Shown one piece after another: positions 6,967-15,174 of a DNA stretch of 23,054 nt (position 1 is the stretch's first letter; every line of letters starts with the position of its first letter). The position numbers and the translations under genes were made by a program. The stretch is taken from positions 1-23,054 of the forward strand of contig JAILZY010000057.1 in assembly GCA_023512255.1 (NCBI GenBank), given 5' to 3'. This DNA is from a bacterium. Lineage in GTDB: Bacteria; SZUA-182; DTGQ01. The notes beneath the pieces were generated by a model that did no database searches, was not told the DNA's origin, and saw only the letters and a program-made list of their open reading frames with translations.

Positions 6967-6993
6967 GCTGAAAAAAAGCCGCTTTTTTTCAGC
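6967..6993. terminator. Bidirectional terminator between convergent genes
   Basis: A perfect 12-bp stem (GCTGAAAAAAAG, 6967-6978, with 6982-6993) closes a 3-nt loop. Its arms provide runs of seven T's on either strand. It lies 14 bp after the aldolase stop and contains the stop codon of the convergent membrane protein gene (6989-6991). Confidence 0.75.
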
Positions 6994-7720
6994 CTGCAAG
7001 CAGCCAAAGGCCGGCTAGCCCGCAGCTTAATCCCAGCAGCAAGTTGGACAGATGATCAATTTTGCCCATAAGATCAATTCCCTTATTTCGGTACACAATC
7101 CCTAAAAAATAGACCGACAAAAACAGCCCGCAGAAAAAAACAGCCAGGGAAATCAGGATTCCGCTCAAGGGGAAAACGAGAGCAGTCATGGAGACCGCTA
7201 GGGTGGAGAAGTGATTGTGGAGGCTGCCAAGGCGGCTGAGCTTTCTGGTGCTGTGCTGATGAGTGTGATTTTGCTTGGCTTGCGGAGCATGAAAATGCAG
7301 GTGCTCATGCCGATGAGTATAAGAAGGGGGTTGATGCTCTGCGGCTTTTGATTCTGGCCGATCAAGCTCTTTGGGAGCATGAGCATGATCGAGCTGATGT
7401 GAGTGTTCGTGCTGGTGAAGTTGCTTTGGCGGTACCCAAAAAAATTCATACAAACTCTGCAATCCCAAGGCCCAGAGAGCGATTCCAATAGCAGGCCGGG
7501 ATGAAAAATACCCCAGACCAGAGAGTTTAATTCTAAGCAGCCAAAGCGGGATGACTAAGGCCAGGACATATCCAAGGTGGATCAGCCCTACCTTGCCCGA
7601 AACCAGAGATGGCCGATAGTAGATCTCATCGGCTTGGTCGGAATTTAGAATATCAATGATATGATCTCCCCTAAGGCCATGGAAAAATCCAAGAAAAAAT
7701 ATCGCCTGAAAAATCACCAT
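6989..7720 (-). CDS. NiCoT/RcnA-like nickel-cobalt transporter-like membrane protein with His-rich loop
   Basis: This 243-residue inner-membrane protein has about six hydrophobic segments. The first contains FHGLRGDHI, which fits the HX4DH signature of NiCoT-type Ni/Co permeases (H14, D19, H20). Between the third and fourth segments lies a hydrophilic loop (about 102-170) with 17 histidines in HXH runs such as THRHEHLHFH, as in RcnA-type exporters and other metal carriers. It is shorter than typical NiCoT proteins (about 330 residues) and the second conserved motif is not obvious, so uptake or export and the metal itself are uncertain. It starts at ATG 7720 with a weak ribosome binding site. 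It is convergent with the aldolase gene and follows ahbC on the same strand. Confidence 0.6.
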   Translation of the reverse strand: MVIFQAIFFLGFFHGLRGDHIIDILNSDQADEIYYRPSLVSGKVGLIHLGYVLALVIPLWLLRIKLSGLGYFSSRPAIGIALWALGLQSLYEFFWVPPKQLHQHEHSHQLDHAHAPKELDRPESKAAEHQPPSYTHRHEHLHFHAPQAKQNHTHQHSTRKLSRLGSLHNHFSTLAVSMTALVFPLSGILISLAVFFCGLFLSVYFLGIVYRNKGIDLMGKIDHLSNLLLGLSCGLAGLWLLAG

Positions 7721-7844: not shown

Positions 7845-9077
7845 TCACTGATCGCTGATTCCGCACTCCTCAGGAGTCAAGTAGCACTGAGGATCTTCCA
7901 TCCAGGGATCGCCGTAAACTCGCAGGGCCCGCACCCTAAAAGAGCCACCGCAGGCATCGATCCACCGACATCGGCTGCACTTTCCCTTGAGCAGGGGCTT
8001 TCGATTTTTTAGGCCAGCCATGATCGGATCTCGCGTATCCATCCAAATCTCCGAGAAAGGCCGCTCCCTGACATTCCCCAGGGTATAATCCAACCAGAAT
8101 TGATCTGGATGCACATTCCCGCAAAAATCAATTTCACCAATACCAACCCCAGTTGAGTAAAGCCCTCCGCCATTCCAGGTCAGAAGCTCCATGACCTCTT
8201 TTGCCCGCTGCGGATTTTTCTGTTTCAGTTTCAAGTAGAGGTAGATTCCATCCACATGGTTGTCTACAGTCAGAATCTCTTTGGCCAGCCCTCGTCTGGC
8301 AAAATCCTCACTCCGCTCCAAAATGATGTCCATAGCTTTACGGGATTCTTCAGCCGTCAGGTCATCATTGCGGATATCAATTCCCCGACCGGAATAAACC
8401 AGATGATAGAAGCAGGCCCGGTCAATATCTTCAGCCTCAATAAAGTCAAAAATTCTGTGCAGATCCTTGGCATTTCTGCGGGTCAGAGTCAGGCGCAAAC
8501 CTACCCGTTGCCCAACTTCAACGCAATTTCTAAACCCTCTCATAGCTCGCTCGAACGCGCCCGCAACCCCTCGAAATTGATCGTTCACTTCACCGATCCC
8601 ATCCAGGCTGATGCCTACATAGGTAAAGCCCACCTCTTTCAGCTTGCGAGCCACTTCCTTGGTGATCAGGGTGCCGTTAGTTGACAGGGTCGGCTTAACT
8701 CCCTGCTCCAGGGCATAGGCAGCTAGCTCAAAAAGGTCCTTTCGGATCAGCGGCTCTCCGCCTGAAAAGAGAATAGCCGGCACCTTGAATCTTCCAAGGT
8801 CAGCCAGCATTGCTTTGGCCTCATCCGTGGTCAACTCTCCCTGATAGGGAATATTTTCCGAATCAGTATAGCAGTGAACACATTTCAAATTGCAGGTCCT
8901 GGTTGAGTTCCAGACCACAATAGGCCGCCTTTCAGAAGCACTCAAGGGAATACGGCTGTTAGTCAGCCCTTCCCAACCCTGGCCAAGCCTATGATGACTT
9001 TTGTTGATTTTTCGGCCATACCGAAGATCATCACTCGGAGTCTCCTCTCCGCAATACAATCTCGTAATGTTGATCAT
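7845..9077 (-). CDS. ahbC: 12,18-didecarboxysiroheme deacetylase (radical SAM, AhbC)
   Basis: This 410-residue radical SAM enzyme acts in the siroheme-dependent heme pathway, where AhbC removes the two acetate side chains of didecarboxysiroheme to give iron-coproporphyrin III. Family marks are the N-terminal MINITRLYCGEETPSDDLRYG, the cluster site C62-x3-C66-x2-C69 (TCNLKCVHCY), FSGGEPL, STNGTLI, GISLDG, CFYHLVYSGRG, VDNHVDGIY and the C-terminal Cys set (GKCSRCRWIDACGGSFRVRA) for a second cluster. ATG 9077 is preferred because AAGGAAAA lies 6-8 nt upstream and homologues begin at this residue; a TTG at 9095 is also in frame. A sigma-70 promoter lies at 9128-9156. The related NirJ of heme d1 synthesis is an alternative, but the motifs fit AhbC better. 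No other ahb genes are in the window. Confidence 0.88.
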   Translation of the reverse strand: MINITRLYCGEETPSDDLRYGRKINKSHHRLGQGWEGLTNSRIPLSASERRPIVVWNSTRTCNLKCVHCYTDSENIPYQGELTTDEAKAMLADLGRFKVPAILFSGGEPLIRKDLFELAAYALEQGVKPTLSTNGTLITKEVARKLKEVGFTYVGISLDGIGEVNDQFRGVAGAFERAMRGFRNCVEVGQRVGLRLTLTRRNAKDLHRIFDFIEAEDIDRACFYHLVYSGRGIDIRNDDLTAEESRKAMDIILERSEDFARRGLAKEILTVDNHVDGIYLYLKLKQKNPQRAKEVMELLTWNGGGLYSTGVGIGEIDFCGNVHPDQFWLDYTLGNVRERPFSEIWMDTRDPIMAGLKNRKPLLKGKCSRCRWIDACGGSFRVRALRVYGDPWMEDPQCYLTPEECGISDQ

Positions 9078-9127
9078 GATGATTTTCCTTATCAAGTTTT
9101 AGTGATCAGGAAGCAAAAAGCTTCTTC

Positions 9128-9422: not shown

Positions 9423-12400
9423 TTGGATAAAAAAAGTGAAGCTGCAATAGACAGCCGCACAGGCTCGATTCTGCTTGCGGGAAAAGAGGGTGCCATCTGC
9501 TGGCAACTTAAACTGGGGGAGCACCCAAGGGAGGAGCACTCAAAGAGGGAACACCCAAGAGGGGAGCACTCAAGGCCGCAAGAGCCAAAGCTGGTCTTGG
9601 TTATTGTCGCCCATTGCTCTGAAAAACCCCTCCTTCACTGGGGCGTCGCCTACACACCCCCCTGGGCTAGCGCTTATGAAAAATGCCCATCAGGCTGGGT
9701 TCTTCCGCCGCCGATCATCCGACCGCCAGAGACAGTGGATTGTCGGGATGGCCTGGCTGTGCAAACTCCCATGATTGAGGCGGGAGAAAGTGGCCTTTTT
9801 TCAATTACCATAACTATTCCAACGAGTCTGAATATCAGACAAATTCTCTTTGTCCTCTATTTTCCTCAAAGCCACACCTGGGATAACAACCAGCAACAGG
9901 ATTATATCATCCCTCTGCCAGCAAGATCAGACATTCCACTGCTACTGACTCTTGCAGCTTCCCAGCAAGGGGAAGCCCCCCTGATCCAGTCGATTGTAGG
10001 ACGAATCCTAGCCCATGAGAGCCGAAAACATTGGGAGATGGGGATGCGGCTTGAATTTATCGGCCATCTGCTCGATGAGTTTGAGCCAACTGAATCTGTG
10101 CTTAGCCTGCTTGAAATTTACTTACAGTATGCGGCTCAAGGCCATCTTCCCTGGCGCCGCCACTATGACCGACAGACTTACATCCTGGCCCCGAAGATTC
10201 TAAGGCTAGCTGAGAAAATTTCTAAACTCTTGCTCGCCTGGCGTCCCCGCTTTCTGCCGATCTGGCGGCGGATGCTGGGAAATCTCCCCTCATCAGGCCG
10301 CAATCTACAGGATATTGGCCTGGCTATCCGACTCAAGATTCTCGAGTGTAAGGATCACCAGATACGGATTATCTATGACCCATTTGTGTCTGATTTCCAC
10401 CAGAAGCTCCACAATGCCAGCGGACCTGAAGATGTGGCTATCTGCCGAGCATATCTGGCCTTTCTGGACTCTGGGGGAGATATCAACCAATTCTATCAGA
10501 GCCTCTGGCAGGCAGGGTTAGCTAAGGAGGAGCGGCTGGATAATGGTCAAAAGGTGTTCATCCCACTTCTGGACCTCTACGGAGACTGTCGCTCCATTCG
10601 GCATCTTCCAACCTATGATGTCCAAAAAGCCCAAGCGACTAGGAAGGTTTTCGATGAGCTTCTCATCCTCCTTGAGAAGTTTTTCGGTGGTATGGAAGTC
10701 GAGGAGGCAATTGCCCTGGTCAAACCACAGGCTGATTCTGACCTCTGGCAGAAATTGCAAAACCTTTTGGCTCTGAAAGAAAAACAGAAGGCTCATGGCT
10801 CATCACCTCCTGCTTGCTTTGAGGCCATCTGCTCACTTGCTGAGCTAAGGCTTGAGCTTCGGTCAAGAATCCTACACATTAGCCTGACAAGCGATGACAT
10901 CCGTAAATTTTTGCACCTTGACCTGGCCCTTGGAAACTATGCCAAAGCCCTGGCCGCATCTCTTCTCAATGCCCTATCATCCACTGACAGCCTCGACCGC
11001 AGCCACCACCGTCTCATAGAATCACTATTTTCTTGCTTTGATCTTCTCGATCTCCTTATCCTGCACCTTTCTGCTGATGCTCAGCCTGAGGCTGAGATTC
11101 CCGTAATCCAACAGCACCTTAGGCAGTGGCTAGAAAGGGGTAAGCGATGCGGCATAAAGCAGCAGACTCAAAAAGAGGGCAGTGCCGACGACTGGTATCT
11201 TGAGGGAAAGGCTATTTTGGCTCGTCTTGGCCATGTTATCCAGACCCAGGCAAGGAGCCGCATAGCCCTATATCAACCCAAAGCAGAGCTACTTGGCCGT
11301 CTGCTTGAGATCAGCCCAAAGGTTTGGCAAACCTTCAGCGAGGAGAGCCTGCGCCATGACTGGCTATTTTATCTTTCCCGGCTGCTCACTCTGGCTAGAC
11401 ATACCCTGCGGCAAATAGCTGGATGGAGTGCAACCGAGGTGCTGGTGCCTGGACGGGTGCAGGGGAAGGTAGCCAGGCTGGATGAACTCTCATCCTTGCC
11501 CTCTTCTTCTTTACTCGGTGAGGCTCCCCTGATTCTGCTTTTAGAACATTTGCGCGGCGATGAAGATATTCCTGAAGGCATAGCCGCCATGATCAGTCGA
11601 ATAGCACGGGATAGGCTGAGCCACTTCGGGATTAGGGCCAGGGAACAGGGGGTAGTCTGGATCTGCCTTGAAGAGGAAGCCGACTACCAGAAGCTTAAAC
11701 AGTATGAAGGAGCTTGGATCGAGCTTTTAGCCGATGAGAATCAGATCCGGGTTACAACTATTGCCCCACCTTCCCCTTGGGCTCATCCTGCTGCCGGAAA
11801 AGTCAAGAGCCGGGGATTTTCTCTGCCAGTGGTGCGCCGCGCTGGGTCATTAACTTTAGTCTATCCAGAACAGTATGAGCTTTCAACTGTCGGCCCAAAG
11901 GCATATCAACTTCGACTGCTCAGGGAGCGGCTCTGTGGCCAGGTGCAGGTACCGGACTCTATAGCCGTACCCTTTGGCGTTTTCGAGCTGCTATTGCAGG
12001 CTAACCCTAAAGCAAGCAGCGAATACCGCAAGATAACCGACAGCTTGGCCAGGGGCGAGGAGTCAGTGGCGGCGGCGGATAGTAGTCAGTTGGGCAAGCA
12101 ACTTGAAGCCTTGCGGGAGCTGATCGAATCGCTCGATATAAGTCAGGATTACTGCCTCAGGCTAAGGCAGGCTGTGCAGGAAAGACTTGGCCCAAATGTC
12201 CCCCTGATTTTCCGCTCAAGCTCCAATGCCGAGGACCTTGAAGGTTATAGCGCCGCCGGTCTATATGAGTCTTACCCAGGGGTACATCTTGAGAAGCTGC
12301 CACGGTTTTTGAAAAAGGTCTGGGCTTCTCAATGGAGCCTGCGGGCAGTAACTAACCGCCTCAGGGCAGGGATCCCTCATGAAGAAGTTCGCCTGGCGGT

Positions 12401-12884
12401 GTTGATCCAGGAGTTGATTTTAGCCGATTATGCATTTGTGGTCCATACTCATTATCCCCTAGCCTCTGCTGGCAGTCAGGCTCTGTCTGAAAGCCGTAAT
12501 CAACTATACATCGAGCTGGTCCAGGGCCTTGGAGAATCGCTAGTCGGAGGGTCAGAAGGGCAGGGATACCAGATCCTATATGAGCGAAGCTCAGGGGAAT
12601 TGAAACGGATAGGCTTTGCCACCAAGGGGTGGCGCTGGATGATCGGAGCCGATGGTCTCCCGGTCAGGGTCGTCAGTGACTATTCAAACGATCTACTCTG
12701 CTTGGAAAAGGATAAATGGGCGCCCCTGATTCGCCAGGTTGCTCTGATCTCGATCATGATCGAAGCGGCTTGGGGAAATCAGCCCCAGGATATTGAAGGG
12801 GTAATTAAGGATGGGAAAATTTTTATTGTCCAGACCAGGCCACAGCAGATTTTCAAAGCCACTGACATCATCCATAAACCATGA
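9423..12884 (+). CDS. Alpha-glucan water dikinase (GWD) family protein
   Basis: This 1153-residue homologue of plant GWD would transfer the beta-phosphate of ATP to a glucan glucosyl unit and release the gamma-phosphate to water. Parts seen in order: a CBM45-like region (about 14-170; LHWGV at 71, GWVLPPP at 91); a central GWD region with DFHQKLHNASGPEDVAICRA (324-343; plant EWHQKLHNNTSPDDVVIC); the swivelling phosphohistidine domain with GDEDIPEG and LSHFGIRAR, whose H734 is the predicted phosphorylated histidine (plant LSHVSVRAR); and the C-terminal PPDK-type nucleotide-binding domain with GPKAYQL (824), FRSSSNAEDLEGYSAAGLYES (930-950; R931) and VQTRPQ near the end. Plant GWD is longer with two CBM45 domains; this has one plus a charged repeat insert (about 32-51). 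The start is uncertain: TTG 9423 lies 19 nt after AAGGAG (9398-9403), and an ATT at 9414 is better spaced. The phosphatase gene begins 33 bp downstream. Confidence 0.9.
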   Translation: MDKKSEAAIDSRTGSILLAGKEGAICWQLKLGEHPREEHSKREHPRGEHSRPQEPKLVLVIVAHCSEKPLLHWGVAYTPPWASAYEKCPSGWVLPPPIIRPPETVDCRDGLAVQTPMIEAGESGLFSITITIPTSLNIRQILFVLYFPQSHTWDNNQQQDYIIPLPARSDIPLLLTLAASQQGEAPLIQSIVGRILAHESRKHWEMGMRLEFIGHLLDEFEPTESVLSLLEIYLQYAAQGHLPWRRHYDRQTYILAPKILRLAEKISKLLLAWRPRFLPIWRRMLGNLPSSGRNLQDIGLAIRLKILECKDHQIRIIYDPFVSDFHQKLHNASGPEDVAICRAYLAFLDSGGDINQFYQSLWQAGLAKEERLDNGQKVFIPLLDLYGDCRSIRHLPTYDVQKAQATRKVFDELLILLEKFFGGMEVEEAIALVKPQADSDLWQKLQNLLALKEKQKAHGSSPPACFEAICSLAELRLELRSRILHISLTSDDIRKFLHLDLALGNYAKALAASLLNALSSTDSLDRSHHRLIESLFSCFDLLDLLILHLSADAQPEAEIPVIQQHLRQWLERGKRCGIKQQTQKEGSADDWYLEGKAILARLGHVIQTQARSRIALYQPKAELLGRLLEISPKVWQTFSEESLRHDWLFYLSRLLTLARHTLRQIAGWSATEVLVPGRVQGKVARLDELSSLPSSSLLGEAPLILLLEHLRGDEDIPEGIAAMISRIARDRLSHFGIRAREQGVVWICLEEEADYQKLKQYEGAWIELLADENQIRVTTIAPPSPWAHPAAGKVKSRGFSLPVVRRAGSLTLVYPEQYELSTVGPKAYQLRLLRERLCGQVQVPDSIAVPFGVFELLLQANPKASSEYRKITDSLARGEESVAAADSSQLGKQLEALRELIESLDISQDYCLRLRQAVQERLGPNVPLIFRSSSNAEDLEGYSAAGLYESYPGVHLEKLPRFLKKVWASQWSLRAVTNRLRAGIPHEEVRLAVLIQELILADYAFVVHTHYPLASAGSQALSESRNQLYIELVQGLGESLVGGSEGQGYQILYERSSGELKRIGFATKGWRWMIGADGLPVRVVSDYSNDLLCLEKDKWAPLIRQVALISIMIEAAWGNQPQDIEGVIKDGKIFIVQTRPQQIFKATDIIHKP
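9516..9575 (+). repeat. Short tandem repeats inside the dikinase N-terminus
   Basis: About four units of the type GGAGCACYCAAGRG encode a highly charged EHPREEHSKREHPRGEHSR-like stretch inside the CBM45-like domain. This looks like a local expansion and probably a surface loop. Confidence 0.6.
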
Positions 12885-12917
12885 CAAACGAGGGAGAAGA
12901 AGGGAGAAGAAAAGACT

Positions 12918-13766
12918 ATGACTGATCAATTTGTCCAGATCACAGAGATTCAGCCTCCCCTAGGCTCATCCCGCACCCTGTACATGCTGGAGCCCTTCGG
13001 CGTGATGGTAAAGGCTACTGCCTACCCCTGTTGCTCACCTCAAAGCCTGGTGGCGGAAATCTGGACCAATGCCATTGACAAACTCAGCCCAGAGGGTGCA
13101 TGGCATGGAGTCCCCATGTACCTAAATTCATCACCAGCCGCAAATCTTCTTGAATTTCACGGCTCTTTCATGCCCACAGATCAGGGGCGATTCGAGTACA
13201 CCGTCAGGGTCGGACTCAAGAAAAACGGACAACCCTATCCCTCCTGCTGGCAGTGGGCCGGAGCCTATGGGCAAAATGGAGCCTTAACCGTTCTCCCACC
13301 CTCTCCTGAGATGGACTGGACTCAAGGGCCGCAGGCTGAGGAGATTGCCCCTGGTGTATTTGTGGCCAATCTCATTGCTGCCTCAAAAGCCCCTGAGCTT
13401 GGCTTCCAAGCCGTATTGAATATGGCCGAAGAGCTTAATTTCGGCTTTCCAGAAGGCGGCGTCGAATATAAAAAGATTGCCCTGCCCGATGGCGCCCATA
13501 ATCCGATTCCTTCAGAAAAGATTCTGGAGGCGGTATCCTGGATCAAGCAACAGGTTGAGCAAGGACGAAGGGTGTGCATCAATTGTCGGGCTGGAATTGG
13601 CAGATCAGGCTCAATTGGCATCGCCTACCTATATGCTTCCCACCCAGACTGGTCGTATACCGAGGCTCTCCAGGCCGCCTGGAGCAAAAAGCCAAATATT
13701 TATCCTCATCAAAATCTGCATCTGACCCTAGAAGCGCTCTTTCCCAGAAGGCCGAGGAAAAGCTGA
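12918..13766 (+). CDS. Dual-specificity (DSP-type) phosphatase with N-terminal beta-sandwich-like domain; candidate glucan phosphatase
   Basis: The C-terminal half of this 282-residue protein (about 135-275) is a DSP/PTP-type phosphatase. It has the loop C223-R-A-G-I-G-R229-S and the likely general acid D191 (LPDGAHNP), 32 residues before the cysteine as is usual. The residue before the cysteine is Asn (INCRAG), where most PTPs have His. The N-terminal half (about 1-130) has no catalytic motif but is rich in alternating strands and aromatics (FHGSFMPTDQGRFEYTV, CWQWAGAYGQNGALTV), suggesting an Ig-like or carbohydrate-binding fold. Laforin also has a binding domain before its DSP; SEX4 has one after. 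Position directly after the dikinase, same strand, 33 bp apart, suggests it removes glucan phosphate; a protein phosphatase role remains possible. The start is ATG 12918, preceded by purine-rich GGGAGAAG. Confidence 0.75.
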   Translation: MTDQFVQITEIQPPLGSSRTLYMLEPFGVMVKATAYPCCSPQSLVAEIWTNAIDKLSPEGAWHGVPMYLNSSPAANLLEFHGSFMPTDQGRFEYTVRVGLKKNGQPYPSCWQWAGAYGQNGALTVLPPSPEMDWTQGPQAEEIAPGVFVANLIAASKAPELGFQAVLNMAEELNFGFPEGGVEYKKIALPDGAHNPIPSEKILEAVSWIKQQVEQGRRVCINCRAGIGRSGSIGIAYLYASHPDWSYTEALQAAWSKKPNIYPHQNLHLTLEALFPRRPRKS

Positions 13767-13926: not shown

Positions 13927-15174
13927 TTGAGGGGCGATAGCCAAGAGAAGGCGCTAAAAAGATTAAAAAACCGCATTAAACTTTGCTCTCGCGGCATTAC
14001 CCTGCCGCCTGGCTCAAAACCCGTACTTCACCTTCAATCAAAACAAGGAGGAGCAGGACCTCAAGGTGTGGCTAGCTATGTCGGCGAGTCTCCAGGAGAC
14101 CACAGCAGTCAGATAAGCTTGCTGATCCTTCCCGAAGAACATTATCTGGCCCGATATGCTTTGCCAACATGTTGGGTAGAAAACCAATCGAACCGCATGG
14201 GTAAAGAGGGAAAGAGAAAGGTCTTGCAGGCAGATGGCGAAGATATCTTCTTGGAAAAGGTACCAAACAACTGGAGAGGAATATTGCCCAATGGCCGAAA
14301 AACTAACATCCTTTCAAAAGCAAGGTTTCATCCCTATGGGACCTTCTCGATCTGCCTGTATCGGAATTGCAGGCATCTTGAAAGTGACGAAGGGTGCAAG
14401 TATTGCACGGCCAATTTGCTGATCAATAAACTTAACTTCTATGAGCGGCTACCAGATCAGGAGAACCTCGATTACCTCACCTTGGCTATGGCTCACAATC
14501 CGATCCGCTCGGTTACCCTGACCAGCGGCACTTTTGAATCCCCAGAGAAAACCACCAGAGAACTGATATCTCAAGCCAGATTGATTAAGGAGAAAACCGC
14601 TCTGTCGATTCATGTTCAGATCGAGCCGATTTTCGACCCAACACTAATGAAGGAGCTGAGCCAGGTCAGCGACTCAATCGGCATATTCCTGGAATTTTTC
14701 GATGAGCGCATCAGACGACAAATCTGCCCCGGCAAAGCCAAAGCCTTCTCTCAGGAGGATTACCTGCGGAGTTGGGAGCTGGCCGTAGCCTGCTTTGGCT
14801 GGGGAAAGGTCTTCACGACCAATATTCTCGGTTTTGATGATGACTATGAGCTTATCCTGCGAGGGATTGAGAAAGCGGCTAAAGTCGGAGTAATGACCTC
14901 TCTCCTCTGGCTTCGGGTCGGAAGTCCCCAGTTGGGTGAGTTCGTTCCCTCATACCTTGAGCGAGATGAAGAGCTGCTGGTGCAACTCCACCTTGAGGCA
15001 GGAAAAATTCTGGTCGAAAACTCGGTGGATAGCCTGGCTGGGGAAAATTCTGGCTGCCTAGGCTGCCATGGCTGCAACGCTATCGGTGAGGCTATTTCCT
15101 GGGCGCGGCTGGCTTTACAGAAGAGCCACAAGACCACAACCTCAAATAAAAGTGAGGCCGCGGCAGTTAGCTAA
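13927..15174 (+). CDS. Radical SAM protein, MSMEG_0568-like
   Basis: This 415-residue protein shows a radical SAM barrel with a widely spaced cluster motif, C148-x8-C157-x2-C160 (an extra C143 precedes it), followed by TLTSGTFES as the SAM-contacting strand. Further blocks (SIHVQIEP, FLEFFDE, CPGKA, YLRSWELAVACFGWGKV, NILGFDDDYEL) resemble, from memory, the MSMEG_0568 radical SAM family, whose reaction is not established. The C-terminus has GCLGCHGCNA (C377, C380, C383), possible ligands of a second Fe-S cluster. The start is TTG 13927, eight nt after a perfect AGGAGG. It follows the dikinase-phosphatase pair by 160 bp and is convergent with the Nif3-like gene; no functional link to glucan metabolism is evident. 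Substrate unknown. Confidence 0.7.
   Translation: MRGDSQEKALKRLKNRIKLCSRGITLPPGSKPVLHLQSKQGGAGPQGVASYVGESPGDHSSQISLLILPEEHYLARYALPTCWVENQSNRMGKEGKRKVLQADGEDIFLEKVPNNWRGILPNGRKTNILSKARFHPYGTFSICLYRNCRHLESDEGCKYCTANLLINKLNFYERLPDQENLDYLTLAMAHNPIRSVTLTSGTFESPEKTTRELISQARLIKEKTALSIHVQIEPIFDPTLMKELSQVSDSIGIFLEFFDERIRRQICPGKAKAFSQEDYLRSWELAVACFGWGKVFTTNILGFDDDYELILRGIEKAAKVGVMTSLLWLRVGSPQLGEFVPSYLERDEELLVQLHLEAGKILVENSVDSLAGENSGCLGCHGCNAIGEAISWARLALQKSHKTTTSNKSEAAAVS

Follow-up and report, generated by a model that had tools for sequence, protein, structure and literature searches.

A bacterial gene adjacent to one for a glucan, water dikinase (GWD) encodes what is probably a phosphoglucan phosphatase. 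Such an enzyme would reverse the phosphorylation of storage glucan by the GWD; we infer both its substrate and its binding to glucan. The gene is located in a stretch of 23,054 nucleotides, the whole of which is referred to here as the window. Its product combines an Ig-like N-terminal domain (NTD) with a dual-specificity phosphatase (DSP) domain in which the catalytic residues are conserved. The neighbouring protein is a GWD by its domain order, and the pairing of the two genes is conserved. The relevant features of the window are the following.

9423-12884, + strand: GWD, 1153 aa from a TTG start taken from a mechanical ORF list, the true start possibly lying further downstream; Ig_N_CWD1 at residues 56-165, GWD1_pHisD at 672-780 (His734), PPDK_N at 822-1143
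12918-13766, + strand: proposed phosphoglucan phosphatase, 282 aa, ATG start (Pfam, relatives, gene order after the GWD in four genomes)
12918-13325, + strand: Ig-like NTD resembling GlgE domain N in its predicted fold, residues 1-136 (AlphaFold2, Foldseek, VIA-align)
13326-13763, + strand: DSP catalytic domain, residues 137-282 (PF00782; VIA-align Z 13.7 against DSPs)
13488-13490, + strand: Asp191, putative general acid, 32 residues N-terminal to the catalytic cysteine (invariant in ten relatives)
13581-13607, + strand: signature loop N-C-R-A-G-I-G-R-S, residues 222-230 (read from the sequence and compared with the family)
13927-15174, + strand: radical SAM protein after the phosphatase (PF04055 and NF045502/TIGR04043 below cut-off; synteny)

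The catalytic domain and its asparagine loop

The window protein consists of two domains, the Ig-like NTD (residues 1 to about 135) and the DSP domain. The Pfam family DSPc (PF00782) matches residues 156-270 with an E-value of 9.4e-13 and 48.6 bits (cut-off 33.5), and this is the single match to the family in the window's genome. Judging by its conservation, the reading frame is a real protein and no chance frame, since its relatives in three other family genomes are 82, 68 and 59% identical to it and a cyanobacterial one is 42% identical, numerous residues being invariant in both domains.

The stretch I-N-C-R-A-G-I-G-R-S occupies residues 221-230, with Cys223 as the catalytic cysteine. As expected of a DSP, the loop follows the pattern CX5R with a serine after the arginine, and a general-acid aspartate is found upstream. 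Asp191, Cys223, Arg229 and Ser230 are invariant in an alignment of ten relatives. Because the first three of these are kept throughout, the enzyme looks catalytically intact. The histidine that usually precedes the catalytic cysteine (HCX5R) is missing, its place being taken by Asn222. This histidine is a usual feature of DSPs, but not an essential one.

The original prediction had already read this loop with its asparagine in the window ORF, and had suggested that the change marks a separate group. Asparagine precedes the cysteine in 17 of the 19 distinct full-length family members in the tree set. The other two (L018 and L041), which come from different cyanobacteria, have HC instead; they lie apart in the tree, in a part where the branching is poorly resolved. 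The simplest reading is that asparagine changed to histidine within the family. In 26 PTP- or DSP-like loops from other bacterial proteins, the residue before the cysteine is histidine 23 times, cysteine twice, phenylalanine once and asparagine never. By these counts, asparagine is a good but not absolute mark of the family. Thus, the phosphatases do form a distinct group, although the residue is not strictly diagnostic of it, and the suspicion that asparagine might be common across general bacterial DSPs finds no instance among the unrelated loops.

Some relatives differ from the window protein in other ways. The sister phosphatase in genome G001 (L065:9672-10880) has an extra C-terminal stretch of about 120 residues, for which no Pfam or PDB sequence match was found. 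A copy in the cyanobacterium G256 (L038) contains an in-frame stop and looks broken.

The N-terminal domain

In residues 1-135 of the window protein, all Pfam matches stay below their cut-offs. The best Pfam match of the NTD is GlgE_dom_N_S (PF11896), at 12.7 bits against a cut-off of 25 (E 0.17). When the domain is predicted alone with ten relatives, AlphaFold2 gives a confident beta-sandwich (pLDDT 89.1, pTM 0.82).

Both Foldseek and VIA-align rank GlgE domain N among the highest fold matches of this model, with Z scores of 10-10.7 over 116-121 residues at an identity of about 12-16%. For the GlgE chain 5cim_B, VIA-align aligns 117 residues with a Z score of 10.7 and an rmsd of 3.8. Glycan enzymes supply most of the best matches, with GlgE domain N leading; in VIA-align, mannanase ManDH5 and TVA I alpha-amylase match with their N-domains (Z 10.2 and 8.8) and a glycogen phosphorylase with one of its domains (Z 8.5). 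Integrator chains, which have no connection with glucan, score nearly as high as GlgE (Z 9.2-9.9), and antibodies and other Ig domains reach about 7-8. In the predicted model, the match to GlgE exceeds the background, though it is not alone there. The NTD is thus like GlgE domain N by predicted fold, while its sequence stays below the PF11896 cut-off.

The original prediction pictured the N-terminal part as a strand-rich glucan module placed like that of laforin, and it proposed a structure prediction with a fold search against CBM20 and CBM48. The beta-sandwich and the preponderance of glycan-enzyme matches agree with such a module, and the placement agrees as well, with a beta-sandwich preceding the DSP domain as the CBM does in laforin. 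The type of module, however, appears to be different, with GlgE domain N as the best match. No Pfam match to CBM20 or CBM48 was found in ten NTDs, and neither is named among the fold matches listed.

In the 19 genomes searched, the NTD is joined only to the DSP domain, except for a short fragment in G128. A shared origin of the NTD and the Ig domain of the GWD is unsupported (hhalign probability 0.5%).

The neighbouring dikinase, its gene order and its distribution

The GWD gene, which the original prediction did not mention, gives independent support for a role in glucan metabolism. It ends 33 bp upstream of the phosphatase gene on the same strand. Its product matches Ig_N_CWD1 (E 2.1e-12), GWD1_pHisD (E 6.7e-19) and PPDK_N (E 3.8e-36), all over cut-off and in the same order of Ig_N, pHis and ATP-binding domains as in plant GWD1. 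PEP synthase carries its ATP domain first, so the protein is of the GWD type. In phmmer searches it also matches the solved chloroplastic GWD (9ha9/9qvi). The SH motif at the pHis site, found in plant GWD1 as well, is invariant with His734 in seven bacterial GWDs, and His734 is presumably equivalent to the catalytic histidine of the plant enzyme.

The four family genomes share the gene order GWD, phosphatase, radical SAM; belonging to one family, they do not represent four independent events of pairing. The gaps between GWD and phosphatase in these genomes are 33, 92, 8 and 6 bp. The flanks of the block in G002 and G003 differ from those in the window and in G001. The radical SAM gene is possibly part of the same operon as the phosphatase; in G002 it occurs as a tandem duplicate (L017:9103-10350 and 10385-11626).

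Contamination was considered and rejected: the neighbours are by sequence ordinary bacterial genes (Lon-, ArgJ-, ArgC-, S9- and L13-like), and three further genomes contain the block as well. Likewise, no match was found that would point to spread by a plasmid. Two sister genomes were assembled from cold-seep metagenomes and carry the label Pseudomonadota (CSMAG; PMC10491686).

The window contains several other genes. One codes for a secreted-looking protein with GLYGG repeats (1820-2599); this repeat pattern occurs 55 times in the window's genome and 45 times in G001, and is rare or absent in the rest of the class. Another codes for a membrane protein in which one loop is rich in histidine; it may be a metal transporter and has no Pfam match over cut-off (6989-7720). 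A third codes for a radical SAM/SPASM protein near NirJ1 and AhbC of heme biosynthesis, below both curated cut-offs (7845-9095).

Genes for storage glucan accompany the pair. A GT35 phosphorylase is present in all four family genomes, and glycogen synthase has strong matches in three of them, with only weaker GT5-family matches in G002. G001 has three GWDs. One of these (L061:6243-9458) lies directly before two glycogen-debranching genes (L061:9613-10917 and 11014-13203), which match the glucanotransferase family PF14701 and the amylo-1,6-glucosidase family PF06202 (PF06202/PF12439). On the evidence of this adjacency, the GWD of this bacterial family is tied to alpha-glucan. The active-site stretch of this paralogue reads SHVAIRARNARVLFATC, which we take to be much like the active site of plant GWD1. 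It has the ATC motif after the histidine, which is missing from the window GWD. A further class of GWD, found in three family genomes (L062:1097-3814, L063:8463-11129 and L064:7974-10892), has the pHis and PPDK_N domains without Ig_N and without an adjoining phosphatase.

Outside the window's genome, the phosphatase has full-length relatives in the family's other three genomes and in cyanobacteria, most of them filamentous. Elsewhere, none turned up in the samples searched or in a pattern-based scan covering about 85,000 species genomes. Five genomes of the same class outside the window's family have neither the GWD nor the phosphatase. In a set of 386 genomes taken from around the window's relatives, only the four family genomes have a GWD pHis domain over cut-off. 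In 386 genomes from the cyanobacterial phylum, this domain occurs in one family with genomes of about 2 Mb, where the best GWD-like copies are about 540-570 aa long and the two that were scanned have pHis and PPDK_N only. Short GWD-like dikinases of this family are L130:994-2715, L131:532-2202 and L132:1141-2757; their hosts are probably non-photosynthetic, gut-type relatives.

In cyanobacteria, the phosphatase homologues stand alone, and none of the seven phosphatase-carrying genomes examined has a GWD. Thus, the phosphatase family extends beyond the pairing and does not depend on the GWD. The phosphate on the cyanobacterial substrate must therefore come from another source.

Proposed function and alternative explanations

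The model proposed for the pair starts with the two genes, which are probably co-transcribed. The GWD would transfer phosphate from ATP to glucosyl units of a storage alpha-glucan. The GlgE-N-like NTD would hold the phosphatase on the glucan or position the chain, and the DSP domain would remove the phosphate via Cys223, Arg229 and Asp191. This would be the usual two-step mechanism of cysteine phosphatases, with Asn222 replacing the histidine. Such a cycle of phosphorylation and dephosphorylation may control the solubility or turnover of the glucan, much as plant starch is controlled by GWD and SEX4.

Alternately, the enzyme may be a protein phosphatase. Its NTD would then be a protein-interaction Ig domain, with a target such as a regulator of glucan metabolism or the GWD itself. 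Ig folds are often protein-binding, protein phosphatases and an archaeal PTP come nearest in sequence among solved DSPs, and the cyanobacterial members occur without a GWD. This explanation is nonetheless unlikely, since the fold matches of the NTD place glycan-enzyme domains above antibody-type Ig domains and the conserved partner gene codes for a glucan dikinase. The partner also speaks against an enzyme that dephosphorylates small phosphosugars (for instance maltose 1-phosphate or glucose phosphates) or some other phosphorylated polysaccharide, in which the GlgE-like domain would dimerise or shape the site. The NTD does resemble domain N of an enzyme that uses maltose 1-phosphate, and glycogen genes are also present in G000. 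The paired gene, however, is a GWD and not GlgE, and plant GWD acts on polymeric glucan (PMC12892837), so that this role seems quite improbable.

The loop itself suggests a third possibility, a catalytically weak phosphatase serving mainly as a glucan-binding scaffold. The loop histidine of PTPs, which is replaced by asparagine in most members of the family, stabilises the thiolate (PMC5779698). A pseudoenzyme would be expected to lose the cysteine or the arginine, yet both are invariant here together with Asp191 and Ser230. Two members have histidine in the same loop, and the site therefore tolerates either residue. There is very little chance that the protein is such a scaffold.

A phosphoglucan phosphatase of the kind favoured here can be compared with several known systems. 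Laforin is a glucan phosphatase of the form CBM20-DSP. Like the window protein, it has a beta-sandwich of glucan type before a DSP domain with a CX5R loop. Laforin carries CBM20 and histidine, whereas the window protein has a GlgE-domain-N-like NTD and asparagine, is bacterial and is encoded beside a GWD. When the full-length model is searched with Foldseek, the structure 4rkk, presumably laforin, comes 5th and 11th, and its superposition is poor.

The window protein would counteract GWD in a glucan phosphate cycle, as the plant enzyme SEX4 (DSP-CBM48) does. The CBM of SEX4 follows the DSP domain (PMC5779698), while the extra domain of the window protein is N-terminal and the chain ends just after the DSP domain. 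In the loop, SEX4 has histidine and the window protein asparagine.

LSF2, a plant C3 phosphoglucan phosphatase, has the DSP fold in common with the window protein, but no binding module corresponding to the extra NTD. Judging by the spacing to the cysteine, Phe162 of its aromatic channel appears to match the invariant Gly192. The DSP domain matches LSF2 only weakly in sequence (E 0.0015), below many protein-acting DSPs. Because of this, it is plausible that the window phosphatase was assembled independently from an ordinary DSP. The original prediction proposed placing the DSP domain in a phylogeny with SEX4, LSF2 and laforin; in ranked similarity, ordinary DSPs are at least as close to the domain as LSF2 is. 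GlgE (alpha-1,4-glucan:maltose-1-phosphate maltosyltransferase) shares the predicted fold of the NTD as its domain N, and its catalytic domain is absent from the window protein.

A survey from 2009 found laforin and SEX4 absent from bacteria and archaea and considered a bacterial glucan phosphatase unlikely (PMC2714694). The phosphorylation of bacterial glycogen is still an open question according to a 2025 paper (PMC13011383). In a literature search covering few subscription papers, no description of a GWD-phosphatase pair in bacteria was found.

The pairing of a glucan phosphatase with GWD is known from plants and was thought to be missing from bacteria. The chances are about even that some bacteria have a complete, plant-like phosphate cycle on storage glucan, made up of a GWD and a phosphatase of DSP/GlgE type with an asparagine loop, independent of laforin and SEX4. 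A locus with both dikinase and phosphatase provides a means of testing the phosphorylation of bacterial glycogen directly. It also bears on the origin of plant GWD and raises the possibility that glucan phosphatases were assembled on more than one occasion, from different binding domains.
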